Made by a program: the position numbers and the translations under genes. Positions 1-14,014 of a stretch of DNA of 14,014 nt are shown here, piece by piece. Each line of letters opens with the position of its first letter. Position 1 is the stretch's first letter. This DNA is from Pseudomonadota bacterium (GTDB taxonomy: Bacteria; Pseudomonadota; Gammaproteobacteria; Burkholderiales; Thiobacillaceae): contig JAJZRT010000026.1 of the NCBI GenBank assembly GCA_021802595.1, forward strand, positions 1 through 14,014. The letters are read 5' to 3'. The notes beneath the pieces are model-generated. The model saw nothing but the letters and a program-made list of their open reading frames with translations, ran no database searches and was not told the origin of the DNA.

Positions 1-988
1 TCTTGTTCCAGGCGAGGTCTTCGTCGTGGACGTGGTGGGCCTCGTCGTTGAGCACCATCAGATTGGGCAGGCGCTTGACCCGCTCCAGCATGGGCGTGGC
101 CGTGGTGAGGTTGCCCTTGGGCGCGTTGCCCAGCAGGGCCGCGACCGGGTTGATGGGCGCCTGAGGGGCGCCGTCCTCGTAGATCTGCTGGATGTTGGTG
201 AGGAACAGGTTGCCGGCGGATGCCGGCTCGCGGGCGTCTCCCCGCAGGGTCACCTGGAGCGCGAACTGGTTCCTCCATTCCGGCGGCACGATGGGCAGTT
301 GATGGAAAACCCGGGCCGACTCGAAGTCCTCGCGCAGGCGCTCGTAGACGATCACGTTCGGCGCCACCACCAGGAAGTTGTCCGCCGCCAAGCTGCCCGC
401 CTCCAGCCGGCGATGCAGCAGGCTCCACGCGATGACCAGCCCCATGACCACGGTCTTGCCGCTGCCCGTGGCCATCTTCACCGCATAGCGGGTCAGTCCC
501 GCCGGGGGAAGTTCCTGCTCGGCCTGCTTGCCGATCTCCGGGATGTAGCGCCGGAAGCTGCGCGTGCCTTTGGTGGAAGTGAGAATCTCCAGTTCCAGCA
601 GGTCGGGGCTCTCGAAGTAGGCCTGGACCAGTTCGGCCACGTCGCGCCGTTGCTCGACCTCATAGAGATAGACGAGCGTCTCCACCGCCTCCCGCTGGCA
701 GAAGTAGAAGCGGAACGGAAGGCCTTCGGGCAGCAGGTGGTCTTCCTCGAACCAGTACTGAAACAGCCGCCGCGTGGTGTCGGAGGCGCCCGGGTAATCG
801 CCTTCGCGCCAGGCATCCACTTGCTCGCGGATGCGCGTCACCAGCAGGGTTCGGCTCTCGCGCCGACCGTCGGCCTCCTCCCAGGCATCCGCGCCGGCCT
901 TGACCAAATGGCTGCGTGGCGGGGCGTAGGGATTGCGCTCCCGAATCTCCGGCAGTTCGATCTCTAGGACGTTGACGTGCTCGCTCAT
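1..988 (-). CDS. Type III restriction Res-like DEAD/DEAH helicase, N-terminal part (cut by window edge)
   Basis: The 329 visible codons encode the N-terminal third of a superfamily 2 DNA translocase of the type III restriction (Res, COG3587-like) group. Such subunits use ATP to move on or switch along DNA and cut it with a C-terminal nuclease, which here lies outside the window. A Q-like segment (FCQREA, about residues 96-101) precedes a Walker A motif (ATGSGKT, 173-179) and a DEAH box (NDEAHH, 314-319). The ATG at 988 has no clear Shine-Dalgarno sequence. It lies 80 bases after the stop of the AlbA_2 ATPase gene and downstream of mod, the usual mod-then-res order. The opening region (NPYAPPRSHLVK, then a TRRLFQYWFEE segment) reminds me of the BPTD_3080-type restriction endonuclease helicases, but this is from memory. 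Helicase identity is certain; restriction role is inferred from the motifs and the mod neighbour. Confidence 0.85.
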   Translation of the reverse strand, partial: MSEHVNVLEIELPEIRERNPYAPPRSHLVKAGADAWEEADGRRESRTLLVTRIREQVDAWREGDYPGASDTTRRLFQYWFEEDHLLPEGLPFRFYFCQREAVETLVYLYEVEQRRDVAELVQAYFESPDLLELEILTSTKGTRSFRRYIPEIGKQAEQELPPAGLTRYAVKMATGSGKTVVMGLVIAWSLLHRRLEAGSLAADNFLVVAPNVIVYERLREDFESARVFHQLPIVPPEWRNQFALQVTLRGDAREPASAGNLFLTNIQQIYEDGAPQAPINPVAALLGNAPKGNLTTATPMLERVKRLPNLMVLNDEAHHVHDEDLAWNK

Positions 989-1068
989 GAATGATCCGAT
1001 CCGTAGCAATAAGGGCACTCTCGGATAATGAACGTTGACATAACCATTTGATTAAAAACAGTCATTGT

Positions 1069-2556
1069 CTATCTCTCTCGCTCATTATCTGCGTCACCGG
1101 ATAATGAAAACAGGGTGACGTCCTCGCCGCCATCCGGTTTCCGGTACAGGGTTTTCTGCTTGCCCTGGCTCGTGTCCATGACCAGCAACCCCTGCTCCAC
1201 CCAGCGTTTCAACATCTTCGATGCCCTCAGGGTGTCCACCTCGGCGATCCGGCACAGGGCGCGGTTGTTGATGTAGCCGTGGCGGTCGATCCAGTTGCTG
1301 ACCTGCTCCCACACCGCAGGCCGCTCCTCGTTGAGCAGCATGACCAGCACGGCATCCCTATCCAGCGCAGGGCGCGTCAAATAGAGCGGTGGATAGAGGC
1401 CGACGGCGCGCATGGTGGCGAACATCATGCGCACCCCTTCTCCGGCATCGATGTTGGGGGGCTCGGGAAACTCCCGCAGGTTGGCGGCAATCAGCGGGTT
1501 GCGGCTGAACGAGCCGGCGCGCTCGATGGTCGCCGTGGTGATATTGCCCGGCAACAGGCCGGGACTCTCTACTTCGATACGGTTGTCGAAGATGCGTACC
1601 TGGATGTCCTTGGTGATGCTGTAGTCCCGGTGAATCACCGCGTTCGTGATGGCTTCGCGTATGACGCGCGCGGGATAGCGATGCACCGTGTCGAAGCCCG
1701 AGGCCGCAAGCGTCAGTCCCTGGGCAATCTCCCCTGCCACGTATGCGTAGGCATCAGCTACTTGCCGGATCAGCGGCCCCGTGATCGTCTTCGGCGTCTT
1801 CCTGAGATTGGGCAGCGGGCCATGCTCGATGCGCTTGCCAGTGTAATGAAACACCCGGATGGCGGCCTTCGCGGCCAGCACGCCGGACGGGTCGTCGGCA
1901 AATAGCAGGACGGCCGCGCGGGTCGGCAGCAACTGGCCGTCCCGGCGCTTGGCCAGGCCAAGGCGGAACAGGCGGTCGGCGATATCGCCGCTGCGCAAGG
2001 CACGGCTGGCGCAATACAGTCGCCATGCCTCCGTATCCAGCAGTTCCAGCGGCACGTCCACCAGCGCGGATTCGGCGCTGACCAGTCCGCGCGCGAACGA
2101 CAGGGTCGCGATCTCGGCGGCAGACATCTGCCGGTTGCTCTTGCCCATCCGCCGCCAGGTGCCGCCTTCGACAACCGAATGCACCATCGGGCTCTTCGGC
2201 ACCCGCACCAGGACCAGTCGCCCTGCCTGGCCGTCTCGCAACGGGCAGGCGATCGACAGGAAGCTGACGTCCTCAACCGGGGGCGTCAATTGTGATGACA
2301 GCTTGCGCGTGAGCTCATCCAGCGCCACCGGGTTTTCCTCGATGCCGAACAGCCGCGCGGTCCCCACCGCCTTGTCCGCATCCTCGACACCCAATGCCAG
2401 TACACCTCCCTCGGTGTTGGCGAATGCACACACCGTTTCCAGTGCCTTGTGCACCATCTTTCCGGATACGCGCTTGGTCTCGAAGCGCGGCCCTTCCTCG
2501 GTCGAGAGGACCGCGGCGACAAGATCCGCGTCGTTCAGCGCGCCAGCGTCGCTCAC
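1069..2556 (-). CDS. Schlafen AlbA_2 / GHKL-type ATP-binding protein (COG2865-like)
   Basis: This 495-residue protein has an N-terminal AlbA_2 (Schlafen-like) putative nucleic-acid-binding domain: FETKR at 25-29, then the signature CAFANTEGG at 43-51 and ALGVED. A C-terminal divergent GHKL-type ATPase module follows, with an N-box (REAITNAVIHRDY, 300-312), SPGLLPG near 331-337 and GEGVRMMF near 372-379. The last 80 or so residues look like a winged helix (RALCRIAEV, then ASKMLKRWVEQGLLV). The GTG at 2556 is chosen because a strong SD (GGGAGG) sits 4 bases upstream and the codon overlaps the TGA of mod by 4 bases (GTGA). A longer open frame to 2772 exists, but its first 72 residues are low-complexity antisense-like translation of mod. 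The coupling to mod and the downstream res suggests a role in the restriction system. COG2865 proteins are often labelled transcriptional regulators or RecG-like; the biochemical activity is unknown. Confidence 0.88.
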   Translation of the reverse strand: MSDAGALNDADLVAAVLSTEEGPRFETKRVSGKMVHKALETVCAFANTEGGVLALGVEDADKAVGTARLFGIEENPVALDELTRKLSSQLTPPVEDVSFLSIACPLRDGQAGRLVLVRVPKSPMVHSVVEGGTWRRMGKSNRQMSAAEIATLSFARGLVSAESALVDVPLELLDTEAWRLYCASRALRSGDIADRLFRLGLAKRRDGQLLPTRAAVLLFADDPSGVLAAKAAIRVFHYTGKRIEHGPLPNLRKTPKTITGPLIRQVADAYAYVAGEIAQGLTLAASGFDTVHRYPARVIREAITNAVIHRDYSITKDIQVRIFDNRIEVESPGLLPGNITTATIERAGSFSRNPLIAANLREFPEPPNIDAGEGVRMMFATMRAVGLYPPLYLTRPALDRDAVLVMLLNEERPAVWEQVSNWIDRHGYINNRALCRIAEVDTLRASKMLKRWVEQGLLVMDTSQGKQKTLYRKPDGGEDVTLFSLSGDADNERER

Positions 2557-4568
2557 CTGACCTCCCACGTCAGCAACTGGCTGGTGTCGTTGCCGAAGAT
2601 GTCCACCACCTTGACCAGCACCTGGTAGCGGCCCGGCTCGGCGTATTCGTGGGCGTCGCTCTCCAGCACCAGCTTGCGGTTGGCGCGGGTGCGGTAGGCC
2701 TGCCACTGGTTCATGAAGGTGTCGTGGCGGAAGTCCCAGTCCACCGCCCAGTAGTCGATGTAATCCGACCACTTGGCAATCTTGGCGCGCACATCAATGG
2801 GGATCAGCTCGGTGTCGGGGATGACGAAGTTGGCGAGCTTCACCCTGATTTTTCTCCCTCGCCCCTTGGGAGAGGGCCGGGGTGAGGACAGGTCGTCCGG
2901 CACGATCTCGGCCTCCAGGTGCGCGAGGTCGAAGAAGCGCACGTCGCCGCGTTCCACCGCCTGCCGTTCCATCACCTCGCGCGGGATGTTGAGCAGCCGG
3001 AGCTTCACCTGATGGCTGCGCCGCACCTGCTGGGCGAGCGGGTCGTGCAGGCCCATCTCCCACTCCCAGCCCAGCACGTGCAGCTCCTTCTGGCCCAGGG
3101 CGGCCACTTCCGCCACGGCCTCGTTCACCTCGCGGATGGTCACAGGCGCATCCACCGCTCCCACGTGCACCAGGGCCGAGCCCTTCTTGCCATGCACGTG
3201 GGTGCCGGCGATCGGCTGGGCGTGGTACAGATCGAGGATGAAACGCGCATAGGCCGCCACCGCCGCAACGTCCTGCTCCGCCGGCCGCTCGTCGCCGAAG
3301 CTCACCCCCTGCCAGTACTTGCGCTCGTACTGGCCCAGGTTGAGGACTTCGAAGGGCTTGCAGTCCGGGGTTTCCAGCAGGCGCTTGCGGGTGGTGTGGA
3401 TGGCGAAGCGGCCGAGGTCGCAGCCAATCCAGCGGCGATGAAGTTTTTCGGCAACGGCGCAGGTGGTGCCAGAGCCGAGAAAGAAATCCAGCACCAGGTC
3501 GCCTTCGTCACTGCTGGCTCGGATGATGCGTTCCAGCAGGGCCTCCGGCTTCTGGGTGTCATAGCCGGTGCGTTCAATTGCATGAGGGGAAATGGCGCTG
3601 ATGTCGGTCCAAATACTTTGCAAAACCGTTCCGGGCATTTCGTCGAGATACCGCTTGTAACCCGGTATGCCCCCCTCTTTCTTTGGCCAATAGATACGAC
3701 CTTGCTCATCTAATTCATCAAGCTTTTCGATGGTGTATTTCCAGTGGTTCCCCTTTGCAGCAGGGTCGATCCCTCGCCACGGCATACCGGACGAGCCTTT
3801 GCGCGTACCAGCCGCCGTCAGGTCGCTGACCCTATACGGCCGCCCGTCCTGATCCTGATAACGGTAGAAGTTCTCGACGTACTCGGGGTCGTAGTCGGTG
3901 TGCTGCTTGGTCCACTTCCACGTGTCGGTCGCGGTGTAGAGGAAGATCACGTCGTGGATGTGGTTGTAGGTCTTGGAATCGCTGCGTGCGCTGGTGCGTT
4001 GCCAGACGATCTCGTTGCGGTAGTTTTCCCGCCCCATGATCTCGTCGAGAATTGCTTTGGCATAGTGGCTGACGTTGTGGTCGAGATGCACGTACAGGCT
4101 GCCTGTGGGAGCAAGCAATTCGCGCGCAAGTTGCAGCCGGGCGTAGAGCATGTCCAGGTAACTCGTCAGGCCGCCACCCCAAGTGTCCCGATACGCCTTT
4201 TCTTCAATGAGGCTGGCGGTCTTCTCGATCGTCTCGCCACCCACCTGCGCCTTGAACGAGAAATCCGCCCCGGCGTGGAAGGGCGGGTCGATGTAGATCA
4301 AGTCCACCTTGCCGGCGAACTCTGCCATCAGGCTGGCCAGCACCAACTGGTTATCGCCCCAGATGAGCTTGTTGCGCCATTCGTCCTGCCCGCTTGGCTT
4401 GGCGGCGAACAGGTCGGTGGTGTGGCCGACGGCGCGGCTGGCGCGGCCTTCCTTGATGGTCTCCACCACCTGGAAGGGCAGCGCCACGCCGCGATTGACG
4501 ACGCGGTTGCCGTGCTCGTCGTACTTGCCGGGCCAGACCAGTTCGGGCTGGGTGATGTCCAATTTCAT
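2553..4568 (-). CDS. Site-specific adenine DNA methyltransferase, type III Mod-like
   Basis: This 671-residue protein is an N6-adenine or N4-cytosine methyltransferase using S-adenosylmethionine. The motif order is that of the beta class: catalytic motif IV DPPF at 94-97 comes first, a variable middle (about 190-335) is the likely target-recognition region, and then TQKPEALLERII (motif X, 338-349) is followed by the AdoMet-binding motif I (LDFFLGSGTT, 360-369). Beta-class order with a res-type gene downstream fits a type III Mod. A C-terminal extension of some 250 residues follows the catalytic part. The ATG at 4568 has an AGGGG SD 5 bases away and overlaps the stop of the antitoxin-peptidase gene by 4 bases (ATGA). 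The 3' end overlaps the AlbA_2 ATPase gene. Residues about 561-573 are encoded by an interspersed GC-rich repeat kept in frame, an unusual internal insertion. Adenine specificity is assumed from DPPF and the family, not shown. Confidence 0.92.
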   Translation of the reverse strand: MKLDITQPELVWPGKYDEHGNRVVNRGVALPFQVVETIKEGRASRAVGHTTDLFAAKPSGQDEWRNKLIWGDNQLVLASLMAEFAGKVDLIYIDPPFHAGADFSFKAQVGGETIEKTASLIEEKAYRDTWGGGLTSYLDMLYARLQLARELLAPTGSLYVHLDHNVSHYAKAILDEIMGRENYRNEIVWQRTSARSDSKTYNHIHDVIFLYTATDTWKWTKQHTDYDPEYVENFYRYQDQDGRPYRVSDLTAAGTRKGSSGMPWRGIDPAAKGNHWKYTIEKLDELDEQGRIYWPKKEGGIPGYKRYLDEMPGTVLQSIWTDISAISPHAIERTGYDTQKPEALLERIIRASSDEGDLVLDFFLGSGTTCAVAEKLHRRWIGCDLGRFAIHTTRKRLLETPDCKPFEVLNLGQYERKYWQGVSFGDERPAEQDVAAVAAYARFILDLYHAQPIAGTHVHGKKGSALVHVGAVDAPVTIREVNEAVAEVAALGQKELHVLGWEWEMGLHDPLAQQVRRSHQVKLRLLNIPREVMERQAVERGDVRFFDLAHLEAEIVPDDLSSPRPSPKGRGRKIRVKLANFVIPDTELIPIDVRAKIAKWSDYIDYWAVDWDFRHDTFMNQWQAYRTRANRKLVLESDAHEYAEPGRYQVLVKVVDIFGNDTSQLLTWEVR
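2850..2888 (-). repeat. Interspersed GC-rich palindromic repeat inserted in frame inside mod
   Basis: On the plus strand the stretch carries CTCCCTCGCCCC, TTGGGAGAGGG and CCGGGGTGAGG in succession: CTCCC and GGGAG arms around a short loop, with GC-rich flanks. This matches the interspersed repeat seen between genes in many proteobacteria, whose translations are recognisable as SPRPSPKGRGR in one frame and LTPALSQGARE in another. Here it encodes residues 561-573 of the methyltransferase without breaking the frame. Confidence 0.75.
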
Positions 4569-5668
4569 GCAGACCCCTTTTCGTCACAGGGTTCCGCCCA
4601 GCAAAAGCGGCGCTTGAGCCCATTGCCGATCTTGTGGTCGTACACCCCCTCCTTTTGCAGGCGGCCGACGACGATGCCAGGGGCGATACCAATCTCGCCG
4701 GCGAAGGACTCCACCCGGGCCAGCGTGGGGCGGCCCGCCGCCAACCATGCCTTGAGCTTCGCAGGCGGGATGAGTGCGTCGGCAGCGTAGCGGTTCGCCT
4801 CGGCTTCTTTTTCGCCGTCCAGGCCGTTGCCCTCGATGAATATCTCCTTCTTGCCATGCAGCAGCACGTGTCCGGCCTCGTGGAAGAAGGTGAACCAGAG
4901 CTGGTCGTCAGATTTGTAGCGCAGGGAGAGCTGAATCAGCGCCTTGTCGGGAGACAGCCAGCGGGTGGCGCCGGAGACACCGGTCTTGGGCAGTTCCGGC
5001 ACGAAGGCCAGGGCAACGCCCGCGGCGGCGCACAGGTCGATGAGCTTCTGCTGAAACACCTCCGGCGGCTGGCGGGTGAGACTGCGGACTTCCAGCAGCG
5101 CCGCCTGGAAGCGGCCCTTGTCGAAAGGCGCGCAGCGCATCCCCTGGGCCAGCCGCTCCCCCTGGCGCAGCCAGGCGGACACGGCCTCGGGATGTGCCTC
5201 GAAGCGGGCTGACTGCCGGTAGGCCACCTGATGCCCTTTCCACATGAGCTGCCATTGCTCGACAGCGTTGACGCCGAAGAAGCGCAGCACCGCATCGAGT
5301 TGCTCCACCGGATCCTTCAGGCGGGGCAGCCAACCTTGCTGGGTCATCGCCGTTACCGGCACGCGCTTGAGCCAGTCGAGCCCCGTCTGCAAACGGTCGC
5401 GTTCGACATCGCGGGCTCGGACTTCCTGGTAGAGGCTTTCGAGGTTCTGCCAAAAGTGGGCCGGTCTGCCAAGCACGCGCTCCAACTTGAGCGCCGTCTC
5501 GGCGGTGACCGGGGCCTTGGCGTTGACAATCTCGTTGATGGTCTTCGGGGTAAGACCGGTGCGCAGGGCCAGGTCGCGCTGGCTCATGCCGACGGTCTCG
5601 AGGTACTCGGACAGGATTTCTCCGGGCGAGACCGTGTAATCGGGTTGAAAGCCGGTGTCGTTAATCAT
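4565..5668 (-). CDS. higA: HigA-type XRE antitoxin fused to ImmA/IrrE HExxH metallopeptidase
   Basis: This 367-residue protein has two parts. Residues about 14-80 form a HigA-type XRE helix-turn-helix (VSPGEILSEYLE, SQRDLALRTGLTPKTINEIV, then LERVLGRPAHFWQNLE), the DNA-binding and toxin-neutralising part of higBA modules. The C-terminal part is an ImmA/IrrE-family peptidase with the zinc motif HEAGH at 263-267 and a downstream acidic segment (EKEAEANRYA, 287-296) that probably gives the third metal ligand. Ordinary HigA proteins are about 100 residues, so this is the long fused form. The ATG at 5668 has a GGAGGA SD 6 bases upstream and overlaps the toxin stop by 8 bases; the 3' end overlaps mod by 4 bases. 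ImmA-type peptidases in mobile elements cleave their paired repressors. Self-cleavage or toxin release on a signal is plausible here but is inference. Confidence 0.9.
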   Translation of the reverse strand: MINDTGFQPDYTVSPGEILSEYLETVGMSQRDLALRTGLTPKTINEIVNAKAPVTAETALKLERVLGRPAHFWQNLESLYQEVRARDVERDRLQTGLDWLKRVPVTAMTQQGWLPRLKDPVEQLDAVLRFFGVNAVEQWQLMWKGHQVAYRQSARFEAHPEAVSAWLRQGERLAQGMRCAPFDKGRFQAALLEVRSLTRQPPEVFQQKLIDLCAAAGVALAFVPELPKTGVSGATRWLSPDKALIQLSLRYKSDDQLWFTFFHEAGHVLLHGKKEIFIEGNGLDGEKEAEANRYAADALIPPAKLKAWLAAGRPTLARVESFAGEIGIAPGIVVGRLQKEGVYDHKIGNGLKRRFCWAEPCDEKGSA

Positions 5669-6005
5669 GGGTGTCCTCCACGCCGAGAATCTTGATCGCA
5701 GTTACTTGGTGCCAGTCCAGCCCACCTTCCAGCCGCTCGGGATGCGGATCGTGGTCGGGCGTGAAGATCAGGCGGTAAGGGTGATCCAGGTCCATGCTCA
5801 GTTGCCCGGCCCGATCCCCCTTCAGTTCATGACAACGCTCCGAGCCACTATAGGGGGGCCAGAAGTCGCCCAAGCAGTTGGCGGCGCGGATGGCCTGAAT
5901 GCGCCGCATGATCAGGCGGGCACGCCGCTCCCCGTGAATCGCCTGGAGGCTTCGTCCCTCGCGGAAAGCTTTCTCCAGCTTTTTGGTATCAAAAGATATT
6001 TCCAC
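5661..6005 (-). CDS. higB: HigB/RelE-type toxin of a type II toxin-antitoxin module
   Basis: This 114-residue basic protein ends with the pattern typical of HigB-like RelE-fold toxins: ERCHELKGDRAGQLSMDL, then YRLIF at about residues 56-81 and a final strand. These toxins cut mRNA in the ribosome; the cognate antitoxin follows directly, overlapping by 8 bases (ATGATTAA), in the reversed toxin-first order usual for higBA. The start is a GTG at 6005: an in-frame TAA lies at 6018-6020 and no better start exists downstream for 30 residues. No SD is visible ahead of it, and the predicted -10 box (6015-6020) is so close that the message may be almost leaderless. The length, slightly above the roughly 90-110 residues of the family, looks intact. 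Toxicity is not provable from sequence. Confidence 0.87.
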   Translation of the reverse strand: MEISFDTKKLEKAFREGRSLQAIHGERRARLIMRRIQAIRAANCLGDFWPPYSGSERCHELKGDRAGQLSMDLDHPYRLIFTPDHDPHPERLEGGLDWHQVTAIKILGVEDTHD

Positions 6006-6014
6006 TGGAGATTT

Positions 6015-6043
6015 ATATTAACGTAATGGGTTAATTATTTCAA
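6015..6043 (-). promoter_or_regulatory. Predicted sigma70-like promoter of the higBA-mod operon
   Basis: Reading the minus strand, TTGAAA (6043-6038) is followed after exactly 17 bases by TAATAT (6020-6015), close to the TTGACA/TATAAT consensus, in an AT-rich patch inside otherwise GC-rich sequence. It lies between the stop of the helicase gene and the GTG of higB and faces higB. Transcription would start about 6005-6009. It is the only convincing promoter in the minus-strand block, and probably drives higB, higA-immA, mod and the downstream ATPase. Confidence 0.7.
6017..6035. promoter_or_regulatory. Palindromic operator candidate for the HigA-type antitoxin
   Basis: A perfect inverted repeat, ATTAAC and GTTAAT separated by 7 bases, fills most of the promoter spacer and touches the -10 box. 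Toxin-antitoxin operons are normally autorepressed by the antitoxin at such palindromes, and TTAAC/GTTAA-type half-sites are known for HigA relatives. Binding here is inferred only from position and symmetry. Confidence 0.55.
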
Positions 6044-6066: not shown

Positions 6067-8820
6067 TCATGCCGGTCCAATATCTGACCGGCAGATGCCC
6101 TGCATGTCGCAGCCGTTGCAGCGGGCCACGCGGCACAGCCGGTTGTCGCGGATGTCTCGGCCTGCGGCGACGACCAGCGCTTCCGTCTCCCGCAGCAGGC
6201 GTTCCTCCACCAGTTCCCGCTGGGCCGTGCCGGCGCCCTGGTCCAGGTTGTAGATCTCGATCAGGTCCGCCGAGCGGCCAGTGAGCTGCTGGTAGCCCAG
6301 GGCATAGATGTGGAGCTGGCGGCTGGTGACGTCCTCTTCCTGGGCGCGCTCGGTGGATTTGAAGTCGATGATGATGATCTGCTGGGTGTCGGTGCGGCGG
6401 ATCAGGTCAATGCGGCCATGCACCACTACGCCGTCGGCGAGCTTGAGCTCGATGGCCTTCTCGGCGTACTCGATCTTGTCCAGTAGTTGGCCATTCTCAT
6501 CCAGGTAGCGGCGCAGGGCCCGATCCGCCTGCACCCGCATGTCATCACGCAATTGCTGCCAGGCATAGGGCAGGTGCAGGTGGGTGTCGAGCAGTTGCGG
6601 CACCGCGCCGGCATCCAGATATTCGCCATCCAGCGCCTTGTGGTGGACTTCCGCCAGGGCGTCGTGGAGCGATTTGCCGAAGCCGAGCTTCTCATGGAAA
6701 CCCGGGTTGAAGCCGTACATGAAGCGCAGCTTGAACTGGTACGGGCATTCGTAGAAATACTTCAGCTCGCTGAAGGTGAGCAGGATCTCCGACTGCTCCT
6801 GACGCGGCCGTGGCGGCAATTTCTCGACGACCGGCGGCGCGGGTTCGCGAGTCAGCACGTAAGCGGAGGCGGTGATTTCGCGCAGGAAGGGCGACTCCTT
6901 GGCGAACATGCCTTTGGCCGCTTCGGGTGCCCAGGTGCAGTAGAGATATTTCTTGGCCCGGGTCAGGGCGACGTAAAGCAGGCGGCGCTCGTCCGCCTCG
7001 CTGCCGTCGAGGCGGTGGCCGCCCACCACAGCCGCTGCGGGCAGGACGTGAGACCACTTGCGCCCGCCCTGCCCCTTGGCGGGGAAACGGTTCTTGACCA
7101 GGTTGGGCAGAAAAACGACGGGGAATTCCGTGCCCTTGGCACGATGCACCGTCATGACCTGCACGGCATCCGGCTGGGCGAAACCGGCGTCCTCCCAGCC
7201 CTCGGGGTAGTAGTCCGGGGCGTTGTGGATCAGATAGCCGGAGAAGTACGCGTACAGGTCGTCGGGCTTGGTGTGGAAGTGGATGGTTTCGTAATCGGTG
7301 ATGACCTGGCTGAACTTGCCCAGGTTATAGAAGACGATTTCGCCTCGCGCCCGCTCATCCCCGTCGTGATGGGGGATGGTTTCCTCCCGCAGCTCGATCG
7401 CGGCGAGGAAACCCGTGTAGGCACCCTGGAGCGAGTAGCTCGACTTCTGCCAGCGATTGGGCCAGTCGGCTTTTTCGGCATCCAGCCAGGCGATGCCTCG
7501 CCAGACTTGTGCCGGTGTCAGGCCCAGATCGGCCTGCTGCCATGCCTGTTCCAGATGGGCTGCTTGGACACCGTCAGCCAGGTAGTGAAAGACGGCGCAG
7601 GCCGCCTGGACTTCAGCGGTGTCGAACAGCCCGGCCATGCCCTTGACCACGTAGGGGATGCCGGCCTCGCGCAAGGCATCCAGGATGGGCCCGGCGCTGT
7701 TCTTCACGCTGCGCAGCAGGATGGCAAAGTCGGACCAGGACAGGCCCCGGGTCTCGCCATTCTCGGTGAATGGCTTGCCGCGCATTTCCTGAATCTTGTC
7801 GGCGATCCACCGGGCTTCGCTTGCCGGGCTGTCGAACTTGAGGCAGAGCAGGTCGCCATGCCGGAAGGCTTGGGTGCCGGCGCTCTGCATGCGCTTCTCC
7901 AACCGCCCGTCGTTGCGCTCCACGACCTGACGCGCGCTTTCCACCACGCCCTCGCTGCTGCGAAAGTTTTCGGCCAGTGCAACCCGTGAGACGCCGGGAT
8001 AGCGGTCGGCAAAGCCGACGATGTTGGCGATGTCGCTGCCGTTCCACTGGTAGATGGTCTGGTCGTCGTCGCCGACCACGCACAACTGGGCGCCGAGGTC
8101 GTGGAGCAGGCGGATCAGTCCTTCCTGCAAAGGGTTCACGTCCTGGTACTCGTCCACGATCAGGTATTTCACCCGGTCCGCCATCTTCTGCCGCAGGCCG
8201 GCATCGTTCATCAGCGCCTCGACCGCCTCGGTCAGGATCATGCTGTAGTCGAGGTAGCGGTGGTCGTGGAGCAAGGTCTTGTACTTGTCCAAGGCCTGGC
8301 GCACCGGGTGATCTCCCAGCGCGCCCTCGTCGATCTGCGCCTCGCGCACCAGGGAGAGGATTTTCATGTAGAGCCTGGAATCCTTCCACCGCTCCAGTTG
8401 CTTCCCGTCGTGGGTGGTGAGGTCGCGCAAGCCGCTCTGGATGTTGTAGCGGTCGATAAGCAGGCGCTGTTGCACCTCGCTCAACACCGAATACTTGAGA
8501 AAGCGGAAAAGATAGGACTGGAGCAGGTCCAGGCCGAAGCCGTGGATGGTGCCGACAAACATCTCGGCCAATCCGGCGTCCTGCCCCAGTTGCTCACGGC
8601 ACAAGCGGTGAATGCGATCCTTGAGTTCGCCGGCGGCCTTTTCTGTGAAGGTGAAGGCCACGATGTTCGCCGGAGTGATGCCTTCGGCGGCCTTGGTGCT
8701 CAGGAGGTTGACGATGCGCTGGGCCAGTACCTGGGTCTTGCCCGATCCCGCGCAGGCGATCACCTGGAGGTTGCCATCCAGGTGGTCGATGGCCTGTTGC
8801 TGCTGTTCCGTATATTGCAT
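6067..8820 (-). CDS. UvrD/Rep-type helicase fused to a RecB/Cas4-like nuclease with Fe-S cysteines
   Basis: This 917-residue protein joins a superfamily 1A helicase to a nuclease. Helicase motifs run in order: Walker A AGSGKT (24-29), Ia AFTFTEKAAGELK (55-67), II IVDEYQD (221-227), III GDDDQTIYQWNGS (250-262), IV ENFRSSE (284-290), V TVHRAKGTEFPVVF (557-570) and VI LLYVALTRAKK (614-624). The C-terminus is a PD-(D/E)XK nuclease: H719 in SLHDAL, D805 in GRIDLI, D819-x-K821 in DFKS and Q835 in RQLHIYA. Cysteines C692, C896 or C901, C904 and C910 are arranged like the iron-sulfur set of AddB and Cas4. It should unwind and degrade DNA from ends. The ATG at 8820 lies 11 bases after radC; a GTG at 8835 overlapping the radC stop (GTGA) is an alternative and would add 5 residues. 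No partner AddB/RecC subunit is near, so it may act alone or with its neighbours. Confidence 0.9.
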   Translation of the reverse strand: MQYTEQQQQAIDHLDGNLQVIACAGSGKTQVLAQRIVNLLSTKAAEGITPANIVAFTFTEKAAGELKDRIHRLCREQLGQDAGLAEMFVGTIHGFGLDLLQSYLFRFLKYSVLSEVQQRLLIDRYNIQSGLRDLTTHDGKQLERWKDSRLYMKILSLVREAQIDEGALGDHPVRQALDKYKTLLHDHRYLDYSMILTEAVEALMNDAGLRQKMADRVKYLIVDEYQDVNPLQEGLIRLLHDLGAQLCVVGDDDQTIYQWNGSDIANIVGFADRYPGVSRVALAENFRSSEGVVESARQVVERNDGRLEKRMQSAGTQAFRHGDLLCLKFDSPASEARWIADKIQEMRGKPFTENGETRGLSWSDFAILLRSVKNSAGPILDALREAGIPYVVKGMAGLFDTAEVQAACAVFHYLADGVQAAHLEQAWQQADLGLTPAQVWRGIAWLDAEKADWPNRWQKSSYSLQGAYTGFLAAIELREETIPHHDGDERARGEIVFYNLGKFSQVITDYETIHFHTKPDDLYAYFSGYLIHNAPDYYPEGWEDAGFAQPDAVQVMTVHRAKGTEFPVVFLPNLVKNRFPAKGQGGRKWSHVLPAAAVVGGHRLDGSEADERRLLYVALTRAKKYLYCTWAPEAAKGMFAKESPFLREITASAYVLTREPAPPVVEKLPPRPRQEQSEILLTFSELKYFYECPYQFKLRFMYGFNPGFHEKLGFGKSLHDALAEVHHKALDGEYLDAGAVPQLLDTHLHLPYAWQQLRDDMRVQADRALRRYLDENGQLLDKIEYAEKAIELKLADGVVVHGRIDLIRRTDTQQIIIIDFKSTERAQEEDVTSRQLHIYALGYQQLTGRSADLIEIYNLDQGAGTAQRELVEERLLRETEALVVAAGRDIRDNRLCRVARCNGCDMQGICRSDIGPA

Positions 8821-8831
8821 TCTCGACTCGC

Positions 8832-9542
8832 TCACTGTGCGTACTTGGGCAACACGCCCTCGCGGGCAAAGCTGTACGCTCGCTCGCCGGCCACGATGAT
8901 GTGGTCCAGCACCGGTATGCCGATGGCACCGAGCGCCTGCACGAGCACCGCGGTCAACTGATGATCGGCATTGGAAGGCTTGGCCGTGCCCCCCGGGTGG
9001 TTGTGGGCGAGGATGACGCTCGCCGCACGATGCCGCAGGGCCTCTTCCACGACGTGCCGGGGATGGACGTGGGCCTCCTTGACCGTGCCCTCGCCAATCA
9101 TGGCCGGGTAGAGCACCCGGCACTGGCTGTCCAGGCACAACACGTAGAACACTTCTTCGGGGCGCCCCGCCATGAGGGGGACGAGGTACTCGGCCACTGT
9201 CTCGGAGCTGGTCAGCGGCGGATTATCCCGATTCACTCGGTCGTGGAAGTAGCGGCGCGTAATCTGCGGGATCATGCTCAGGAACGCGGCGGCCCTGTCG
9301 CCCATGCCTTCGACGCTGGCGATGTCCTTCGGATCGGCTTCCAGCACCGCCGACAGGGAACCGAAACGGCGCATCAGCCTGTGCGCGATGGGGTTCGTGT
9401 CGGCGCGCGGGATGGCGTGGAAAAGGAGCAGTTCGAGGACCTGATGATCCTCGAACCCGTCCAGGCCATCTTCCAGGAAGCGTGCGCGAAGACGCTCACG
9501 GTGTCCTTGGTGGATGGGTAACGATTCCTCCCCTACAGCCAT
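8832..9542 (-). CDS. radC: RadC-like JAB/JAMM domain protein
   Basis: This 236-residue protein has the RadC layout: an N-terminal helix-hairpin-helix-like segment (EDHQVLELLLFHAIPR, then SVEGMGDRAA near 76-85) and a C-terminal JAMM metal site (AHNHPGGTAKPSNAD, with H180, H182 and D193 as ligands). Despite its name, the family has no settled DNA repair role; RadC-like proteins are common in genomic islands, integrative elements and defence regions. The ATG at 9542 is preferred because AAAGGAA lies 5 bases upstream and the family usually begins close to the HRERLRARFLE segment. A further ATG at 9608 would add 22 residues that look non-conserved. It sits 148 bases after the AlbA_2 ATPase and just ahead of the helicase-nuclease, so co-transcription is likely. 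Its substrate is unknown. Confidence 0.85.
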   Translation of the reverse strand: MAVGEESLPIHQGHRERLRARFLEDGLDGFEDHQVLELLLFHAIPRADTNPIAHRLMRRFGSLSAVLEADPKDIASVEGMGDRAAAFLSMIPQITRRYFHDRVNRDNPPLTSSETVAEYLVPLMAGRPEEVFYVLCLDSQCRVLYPAMIGEGTVKEAHVHPRHVVEEALRHRAASVILAHNHPGGTAKPSNADHQLTAVLVQALGAIGIPVLDHIIVAGERAYSFAREGVLPKYAQ

Positions 9543-9690
9543 TGGTTCCTTTCGTCCGCTATCGACTGCTTGCGACAAACCTCTGCGCGCTTGCGCGATA
9601 GAAAACATTGTTCATTCAAAAGGTTGCCCCTCTATCGCACGTTCCGTATCGAACATCGCCCGTTGATTCGGGCCGTCTTGAGCGATAGCC
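9543..9690. promoter_or_regulatory. Upstream region of radC with repeated CTATCG boxes
   Basis: This 148-base gap carries four CTATCG boxes in alternating orientation: 9559-9564 (+), 9596-9601 (-), 9632-9637 (+) and 9683-9688 (-). Two of them form an 8-base inverted repeat, GCGATAGA at 9595-9602 and TCTATCGC at 9631-9638. I see no confident -35/-10 pair and no clear terminator for the preceding gene. The boxes may be binding sites; this is a pattern observation only. Confidence 0.3.
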
Positions 9691-13057: not shown

Positions 13058-13963
13058 ATGGCGACACCACCGGCATCCGATGAGCAGATCGATGGCCCCG
13101 ACGACGGGTCAGAGGCTGCCGTGCCTGCCGCTGGCCCATTCAATGCGCTGACCGACGATCTCAACGACCTGCGCATCCGCCACCAGCACTGCTGGCTTTG
13201 GCCGCAGATCAGCCTCGAGATCGACCGCCTCGATGACGTGCTGAAAGATGGGCGTCACCTCCTCGAACCGCTGATCACCGACCGCCCCGACTGGGCTGTA
13301 AAAGCCTGCACCGGCATCGCCCGATCCAACCCTGCCATCCACCAGCACGTCGAACGCTACGACAGCTATGCCCAGGCCGCCCGTAGCCTCTGGACGACCT
13401 TCATCCCCGCCACGCCGCCCACCCTGACCGACGCGCAGATCTACGCGGTCATCGCCATGCACGAGGCGCGCATGGCAGCGGAAACCTATTGCGAGATCGC
13501 CGCCGGCATCGAAGAAGAAATGGCGCAGGCCGGCATCGGCCACGACGATGGAGACGATATCGTCGAACTGCGCTGCGACATCGCCGGATGGGAACGCTGG
13601 CACTGGCACTACGCCGCGCAGCAGGTCGGCACCGCTGAGAGATTCCTGCTCATGGCCAGCTTTGCCGCGACAACGCAGGATGCGGCGGCCATCAAGAAAG
13701 CCGAATCGAAGATAGCCACCCTGGAACGCAAGGTGCGGCAGGCCAGGGCGCAAGCAGAAAACTTCTTGAATGGCCGGCCCATTGGTGCAGTCGGCAGGCT
13801 CACCCGCGCGTTGCAGGAAGTCGTCCGTTCCGCGCGCAGCAAGGAACCCGAAGCGGTATTGGCCAAGATCGACGAGTGGATCGGAGAGTGCGTATTCCAG
13901 CCCAAACTGGACGCTGATTCCACGGCAAACTGGACACGAATTCCACGCGAATCTGGACACTGA
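13058..13963 (+). CDS. Hypothetical protein, C-terminus overwritten by tandem repeats
   Basis: This 301-residue soluble, mostly helical, acidic protein belongs to no family I recognise. Seen in it: RIRHQHCWLWPQISLEIDRL near residues 36-56, an alanine-rich centre (IYAVIAMHEARMAAETYCEIAAGIEEEM), a tryptophan/histidine patch (GWERWHWHYA), and a likely coiled coil near 218-245 (KKAESKIATLERKVRQARA). The start chosen is the ATG at 13058, with only a weak purine stretch (CGAGA) upstream. The open frame extends to an ATG at 12923, but that extra part is translated from the ATTCGCA-rich repeats and looks non-coding. From base 13894 the frame runs into the 23-base tandem repeats, so the last 22 or so residues come from the repeat and the stop lies in the third unit. 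The native C-terminus has probably been lost to an insertion. Confidence 0.65.
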   Translation: MATPPASDEQIDGPDDGSEAAVPAAGPFNALTDDLNDLRIRHQHCWLWPQISLEIDRLDDVLKDGRHLLEPLITDRPDWAVKACTGIARSNPAIHQHVERYDSYAQAARSLWTTFIPATPPTLTDAQIYAVIAMHEARMAAETYCEIAAGIEEEMAQAGIGHDDGDDIVELRCDIAGWERWHWHYAAQQVGTAERFLLMASFAATTQDAAAIKKAESKIATLERKVRQARAQAENFLNGRPIGAVGRLTRALQEVVRSARSKEPEAVLAKIDEWIGECVFQPKLDADSTANWTRIPRESGH

Positions 13964-14014
13964 TTCCACGGCAAAGTGGACACAGATTCCAGGGCAAACT
14001 GGACATTTTTGATG
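13894..14014 (+). repeat. Five 23-base tandem repeats, likely multi-repeat end of an IS21-family element
   Basis: Units begin with ATTCC at 13894, 13917, 13940, 13963 and 13986, an exact 23-base period. The consensus is ATTCCACGGC followed by AAACTGGACAC and two variable bases. The last unit departs at its end (TGGACATTTTTGATG) and the window stops there. IS21-family elements carry several such transposase-binding repeats at their ends, and arrays with TGTCCA...GTGGAAT on the complementary strand are, from memory, common at such ends in proteobacteria. The transposase genes (istA, istB) would lie to the right, outside the window, so the assignment is a strong guess. Confidence 0.6.

Follow-up and report, generated by a model that had tools for sequence, protein, structure and literature searches.

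Why should a toxin-antitoxin pair stand inside a restriction-modification operon? The question is raised by a 14,014-nucleotide stretch of contig JAJZRT010000026.1 (a Pseudomonadota bacterium of the Thiobacillaceae; assembly GCA_021802595.1), which was analysed over its whole length and is called the window below. Here a higB-like toxin gene (5661..6005, minus strand, GTG start) and higA-immA (4565..5668, minus), encoding a HigA helix-turn-helix (HTH) protein fused to an ImmA/IrrE zinc peptidase, precede mod, a type III-like adenine methyltransferase gene (2553..4568, minus). A gene for a Schlafen AlbA_2/HATPase_c_4 protein (1069..2556, minus, GTG start) and the N-terminal part of res (2..988, minus) follow. 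As the original prediction had it, higB and higA-immA overlap by 8 bases, higA-immA and mod by 4, and mod and the ATPase gene by 4. The start of res lies 80 bases past the ATPase stop if its ATG at 988 is used, or 50 bases past it with a GTG at 1018, and the gene runs off the window end.

We found that the HigBA pair is a recurrent minority at mod loci of this kind. Our preferred reading, to which we give about even credence, starts from a type III restriction-like defence operon of radC, uvrD/Cas4, mod and res. Between its uvrD and mod, a HigB/HigA-ImmA module complete with a promoter and an operator of its own was inserted and is linked to mod by overlapping reading frames; there it would act as a regulated back-up effector in a restriction operon and not as an essential part of it. 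This reading is built on the anatomy of the locus, a recurrent operator, the HigB fold, a peptidase whose motif is intact, and a slot at which both this module and other effector-like genes have come or gone repeatedly.

Core genes and the slot ahead of mod

Gene content around mod was read in the best 80 of 149 genome loci with mod relatives and in two viral contigs, all annotated by iterated profiles; many of these contigs are short. Of the 83 sources that this makes with the window, 61 had UvrD relatives and 49 had RadC relatives, and the usual order was radC, uvrD, a slot, mod and res. In the window, radC (8832..9608, minus) and then a uvrD-like helicase gene fused to a PD-(D/E)XK (PF12705, Cas4-like) nuclease (about 6067..8820, minus, start placed by eye) open a co-directional run that begins well upstream of higB. 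Other loci showed the order uvrD, radC, mod (L028, L044, L048, L050, L057 and L058) or had radC directly ahead of mod (L032, L043, L056 and L075). Altogether, 62/80 loci have radC, a uvrD/Cas4-like gene or both upstream of mod and on its strand. Neither was found upstream of mod in the other 18, of which 11 have under 5 kb of upstream DNA; the remaining seven (L045, L051, L062, L066, L072, L073 and L076) lack both despite 8.8 kb or more, and the core is therefore frequent without being universal. Viral contigs yielded two close mod relatives, both as partial matches. Two plasmid mod relatives were read by annotation: in L187 the methylase gene is preceded by two unnamed genes and one for a UvrD helicase, and L186 has no UvrD annotated within 9 kb upstream.

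The slot was taken as the DNA between mod and the closest core gene ahead of it, and called empty if it held no leftover open reading frame (ORF) of at least 80 codons. The 62 readable slots were empty in 25 loci, and held sacsin/NOV_C proteins in 17, Schlafen proteins in 10, HigA-ImmA in 5 and other genes only in 9, categories that overlap since some loci hold two kinds. The sacsin/NOV_C class (PADLOC TmtA) comprises two annotated members, with the remainder assigned by BLAST cluster. Contents differ even among near relatives: L018 carries another HTH-ImmA fusion with a PemK toxin, L007 a PemK toxin, L005 an IetS-type subtilase and L006 a Schlafen protein. Elsewhere the slot holds a TIR-TPR protein (L040) or DUF5615 (L022), and several slot proteins gave no Pfam match. 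Among the 19 empty-slot loci in which the gap could be measured (6 of the 25 had no anchor and were left out), mod is estimated to start no more than 41 bases past the upstream core gene in 12 and 70-446 bases past it in 7. These short gaps indicate that mod has an older source of transcription.

HigA-ImmA precedes mod in 6/80 loci, in the window and in one viral contig; the sixth genome locus is L074, whose contig starts 81 bases before higB. We compared this with a chance yardstick of 20 strong HigA-ImmA matches in 369 genomes at an assumed 3,000 or so genes per genome, by which, roughly, about 0.001 HigA-ImmA would be expected in 62 slots, where 5 were observed. In all eight slot loci higA lies on the mod strand. 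Presence in only 6/80 loci means that mod and res do not need HigA-ImmA, and rules out HigBA as a fixed part of this restriction-modification system. Two claims of the original prediction bear on these counts. The first, that higB heads the operon, has to be given up, as radC/uvrD precede mod in 62/80 loci and empty-slot mods adjoin a core gene. The second named, as grounds for abandoning the idea, higBA almost never standing upstream of mod-res, and here the outcome is divided: the pair is a minority at these loci, yet it recurs, on the mod strand each time.

Phylogenies of both proteins indicate that the association arose or was lost repeatedly. On a HigA tree of 53 rows the eight slot members need 5 changes, at least 4 of them forced by supported branches, and a Mod tree of 84 rows requires 6 changes for the eight rows that bear HigA, of which at least 5 are forced. 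Both trees used a single model (LG+G4), the Mod tree as a quick search, and its forced count may be one too high, as L015 and L078 are split there and stand together on the HigA tree, perhaps because the middle part of their mod differs. Counted on the HigA tree, the slot module has undergone at least 4 separate gains or losses.

The higB promoter and its putative operator

A sigma-70-like promoter, TTGAAA-17-TAATAT (6015..6043, minus strand, 9/12 consensus matches), lies ahead of higB. The original prediction took this for the only good promoter, and it is indeed the sole minus-strand match in the window, but by consensus alone it does not rise above chance, the scan giving 3 matches in the window vs 2.3 expected in shuffles. 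The promoter is credible because of an overlapping perfect repeat and the recurrence of that repeat in relatives. The repeat, TTAAC-N7-GTTAA at 6018..6034 (plus-strand letters TTAACGTAATGGGTTAA; strand not assigned), is a putative HigA operator that spans the promoter spacer and the first bases of the -10 element. Searched for in the window before the relatives were seen, the exact pattern occurred once vs 0.01 expected; this single site is ahead of higB, and none lies ahead of radC, mod or res. HigA of Pseudomonas aeruginosa binds TTAAC GTTAA palindromes in its own promoter (PMC6987408; literature statements here and below refer to the retrieved portions of the papers cited), although that HigA is short and carries no peptidase.

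The relatives show the same element. From 54 higB-higA pairs we removed 10 with short upstream DNA and 5 duplicates, and a 17-bp palindrome, TTWAC-N7-GTWAA, was present in 21 of the 39 distinct higB upstream regions that were left, window included. Dinucleotide shuffles of these regions (300 rounds) gave a mean of 0.09 sites and a maximum of 2; the pattern had been widened from the exact TTAAC-N7-GTTAA after repeats in relatives were viewed, so this statistic is partly post hoc. Across 136 loci (1.93 Mb, near-copies included) there were 33 sites, of which 25 precede higB and 2 precede higA in loci that lack higB, and 74 loci without HigA (1.19 Mb) contained 4. The conserved operator lends good support to the predicted autorepression by a HigA-type antitoxin, and HigA-ImmA very probably controls its own promoter.

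The parallel drawn in the original prediction with a C protein, a switch that treats methylase and nuclease differently, was not borne out at the sequence level, with one operator and none ahead of mod or res. C-protein systems likewise place a restriction-modification operon under HTH control, and in one case an entire type I hsd operon appears to be repressed by a C-family gene (PMC12707154); the proteins differ, and the window shows no separate control of methylase and nuclease.

How far transcription from higB might carry was read from a terminator scan, in which the window held 10 terminator-like sites in total vs 9.0 in shuffles, about chance. No minus-strand site lies between the starts of higB and mod in the window; those on this strand include one inside mod (4286-4265) and one near the end of the ATPase gene (1132-1116). 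The gap ahead of res (989..1068, minus) contained no consensus promoter in the scan. With a second Schlafen AlbA_2/HATPase gene (11328-9691) and, at 11694-11344, a gene for a winged-helix HVO_A0114-type protein upstream of radC and on its strand, the start of the operon or island may lie beyond radC. At the window edge (13910-14014) there are short repeated units of the form ATTCCACGGCAAACTGGACAC, which we take to resemble the multiple terminal repeats of an insertion sequence.

Most HigBA relatives were found as two-gene units outside this operon, on virus-labelled contigs, plasmids and chromosomes. Some of these neighbour other restriction or defence genes. The module lies inside a type I operon in L173 (HsdM-HsdS-HigB-HigA-HsdR), and the orders HsdM-HsdM-HigB-HigA-OLD nuclease-UvrD (L175), SNF2 helicase-HigB-HigA-MNT/HEPN, with subtilase and Mod beyond (L174), and, on a plasmid, HigB-HigA-HsdS (L163) also occur. 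Among 369 genomes belonging to one class there were 20 strong HigA matches (E at or below 5e-56). Flanks were examined for 19 and neighbours were annotated for some; at least 5 of the 19 have restriction- or defence-type genes nearby on the same strand (L171, L173, L174, L175 and L182), counting L171 by a subtilase alone and L182 by a short HsdS-like piece. In two virus-labelled contigs (L102 and L104), HigB-HigA-ImmA stands downstream of another Res-Mod pair.

This distribution brings up a simpler account, in which HigBA is a passenger addiction module that sits there only since the position tolerates inserts, stabilises the locus against loss, and works from its own promoter with no regulatory or defensive coupling to restriction. 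It fits a module that brings its own operator, has most of its relatives outside this operon, is one occupant of a slot that stands empty in 25/62 related loci, and varies in its distance from mod between an overlap and 140 bases, with two genes in between in L009. Yet higA keeps to the mod strand in 8/8 slot loci, the slot holds several other genes of effector-like kind (PemK, TIR, Schlafen, subtilase), and HigA-ImmA has been retained with no intact higB in two related loci, an arrangement from which an addiction module would gain nothing. We regard the passenger account as possible, though not likely.

The two proteins and their possible roles

The window has the features of a type II HigBA toxin-antitoxin pair, as judged from its genes: a HigB (RelE-like) fold, the toxin gene first, a HigA-type HTH and a putative operator palindrome. 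HigB itself falls below the Pfam cut-off for PF05015 (21.3 bits vs 27, E 4e-4), but its AlphaFold model (predicted local distance difference test 90) has ribosome-bound Proteus vulgaris HigB as its first structural match, a profile of its family matches HigB chains, and R78 and H113 are nearly invariant across 21 aligned HigBs. The HigA part scores 63.8 bits against TIGR02607 (cut-off 47.7). The peptidase part belongs to Peptidase_M78 (PF06114) with HEAGH at residue 263, and the zinc-peptidase motif HEXXH is kept in 53/53 HigA relatives examined. The best PADLOC match of the fusion is PD-Lambda-2_B (PDLC03982, E 4e-33, residues 19-341), and the capP profile matches at E 3e-11; matches to RmrA of RosmerTA are weak (best E 2e-10), and the HigB-like partner has no PADLOC match.

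Two of the slot loci, L015 and L078, carry the operator, then a 17-codon HigB stub that begins like HigB (by eye) and overlaps the HigA-ImmA start, then HigA-ImmA with HELGH (HEXXH) kept, then mod. They share 94% DNA identity over 1242 bases and were counted as kin and one event; transfer of one HigA cassette between different mods, considered for these loci, was dropped on this comparison. That the operator and HigA-ImmA can persist where the toxin is missing favours a regulatory role, and it speaks against lethality of HigA-ImmA on its own at these loci. As side observations, at 1060-1140 of its contig L015 keeps radC followed by about 15 codons resembling the start of uvrD (by eye) and then the HigA cassette, and uvrD seems to have been deleted. 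The mods of L015 and L078 match at 90-93% DNA identity at their start and later part with no blastn match between, a pattern as would be expected of a swapped target-recognition part.

These loci speak for a pure regulator, in which HigA-ImmA would be a one-protein counterpart of CapH-CapP tuning mod-res after DNA damage, with HigB a minor co-repressor or a gene being lost. Besides the stub loci, where operator, HigA-ImmA and HEXXH outlast the toxin, the ImmA part is like CapP by profile and by model, and like PprI in fold. The window's own HigB, however, is intact and HigB-folded, HigB stands beside most HigA relatives, and the stub loci are kin that amount to one event, and we consider a pure regulator unlikely.

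The stub loci bear in the opposite direction on swapped roles. In PD-lambda-2, the relative found that has been tested by experiment, the HigA-peptidase is toxic and a HigB-like protein rescues (PMC9519451), so the toxin and antitoxin labels used here are themselves uncertain, and this counts against our preferred reading. If the same held in the window, whose HigA-ImmA matches PD-Lambda-2_B over residues 19-341, the HigB-like protein would neutralise HigA-ImmA and loss of HigB would trigger abortive infection. But L015 and L078 carry HigA-ImmA with no HigB beyond the 17-codon stub, and the HigB model matches ribosome-bound HigB with R78 and H113 nearly invariant in 21 HigBs, which makes swapped roles rather improbable.

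Under the preferred reading of a regulated back-up effector, HigA-ImmA would repress the higB promoter, from which mod, the Schlafen gene and perhaps res would be read in part. The peptidase would respond to a trigger, and single-stranded DNA is a precedent, as the proteases of CapH+CapP and PprI are activated by it (PMC13373217, PMC10904395). Once triggered, it would cleave or inactivate HigA, transcription of the distal operon would rise, and HigB, by family an mRNA-cutting toxin, would arrest the cell if restriction has failed. Control of mod and res by HigA-ImmA together with an abortive back-up is plausible by analogy with these systems.

Several observations weigh on the other side. HigA-ImmA is confined to a minority of loci (6/80), and 18/39 higB upstream regions lack TTWAC-N7-GTWAA. 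The coupling to mod is uneven: measured from ORF starts as listed, the 4-base overlap of the window is approached by distances of 1 base in L019, 8 in L083 and 16 in L078, but spacing is looser in L074 (52), L012 (98) and L015 (140), and L009 has two ORFs between higA and mod. The 80-base gap ahead of res is AT-rich (39% GC) and may carry a separate promoter, and a terminator-like site, of a kind no more frequent than chance, lies directly ahead of it. Finally, the ImmA part resembles CapP and PprI weakly in fold, with a TM (template modelling) score of about 0.25-0.35.

A bolder form of the idea, about which we are doubtful but which may merit attention, is a plug-in fuse. HigA-ImmA would be CapH-CapP in one protein; single-stranded DNA made as UvrD/Cas4 and Res attack a phage, or fail against it, would lead ImmA to destroy HigA, boosting the restriction genes downstream and releasing HigB, which would halt the cell. 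The slot would also take other fuses (HTH-ImmA with PemK, TIR, Schlafen, sacsin/NOV_C), making the operon a chassis with an exchangeable abortive module.

The restriction genes and related systems

In type III Mods, motif IV precedes motif I. The window's Mod (N6_N4_Mtase domain) has this order, with DPPF at 94 and FLGSGT at 363, and an EcoP15I-like sequence, its best-scoring solved relatives being type III Mods including EcoP15I (4zcf, E 6e-34). Within mod, palindromic repeat-like DNA (2841-2889) is read in frame as SSPRPSPKGRGRK from residue 561; this segment, for which an alignment of 19 Mods (the window's among them) has no counterpart in its majority consensus, looks like an in-frame insertion of a dispersed repeat. 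The Schlafen ATPase matches PF04326 (E 1e-14) and PF13749 (E 1e-13). The truncated res matches PF04851 (ResIII) by its N-terminal part, and its match to the NCBIfam BPTD_3080 family is partial and far below cut-off.

Restriction loci with an embedded back-up have an example in PrrC, an RNase, whose proteins differ from those of the window. The parts of the present locus are also already known, namely RelE with Xre-COG2856 fusions, the UvrD-Cas4/Mod/Res neighbourhood and the back-up effectors of BREX. With UvrD fused to a PF12705 nuclease beside mod and res, the window fits the neighbourhood described by Hudaiberdiev et al. (2017, PMC5704561), where the same helicase-nuclease fusion stands beside a type III Mod and Res, and several loci have WYL/HTH regulators and Schlafen-like ATPases. 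The main text of that paper contains 'radc' 0 times and, in its retrieved portion, mentions neither HigBA nor a cargo position.

For the module itself, a close likeness is PD-lambda-2 (Vassallo et al. 2022, PMC9519451), an anti-phage system with the same HigB-like gene followed by a HigA-peptidase fusion. Its third gene, however, is a P4-antitoxin relative where the window has mod, and among the matches listed for 10 scanned proteins there was no PD-Lambda-2 match except _B, the library's content for the other components being unchecked. Makarova et al. (2009, PMC2701414) predicted modules of a RelE or PIN toxin with an HTH-zinc-protease (Xre-COG2856) fusion, likened them to LexA and found them abundant in phages and prophages; a restriction operon is unmentioned in the text retrieved. 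In CapH-CapP, an HTH repressor and an ImmA-type protease activated by single-stranded DNA control an adjacent immune operon (PMC13373217, PMC10904395), but as two proteins, whereas the window has one fused protein with a toxin partner, inside the operon. BREX and related systems are defence operons with accessory effectors too, including Schlafen RNases fused to a minimal histidine kinase and winged HTH (PMC12839542), but their core genes are different, and the main text of that paper contains neither 'higa' nor 'imma'. A search of open-access PubMed Central papers, with subscription literature outside its scope, found none on HigBA inside this restriction operon or on a uvrD-mod cargo slot.

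The recurrent 17-bp operator provides a simple marker for promoters of the HigB/HigA-ImmA family. More broadly, the recurring restriction core has a place at which effector-like or toxin modules are exchanged, which suggests that bacteria add such modules to their restriction systems as a further layer of defence. The operator and stress-type peptidase of the HigB/HigA-ImmA module could time the switch from phage cutting to cell arrest, and the locus is thus a concrete example of a possible link between restriction and abortive infection.

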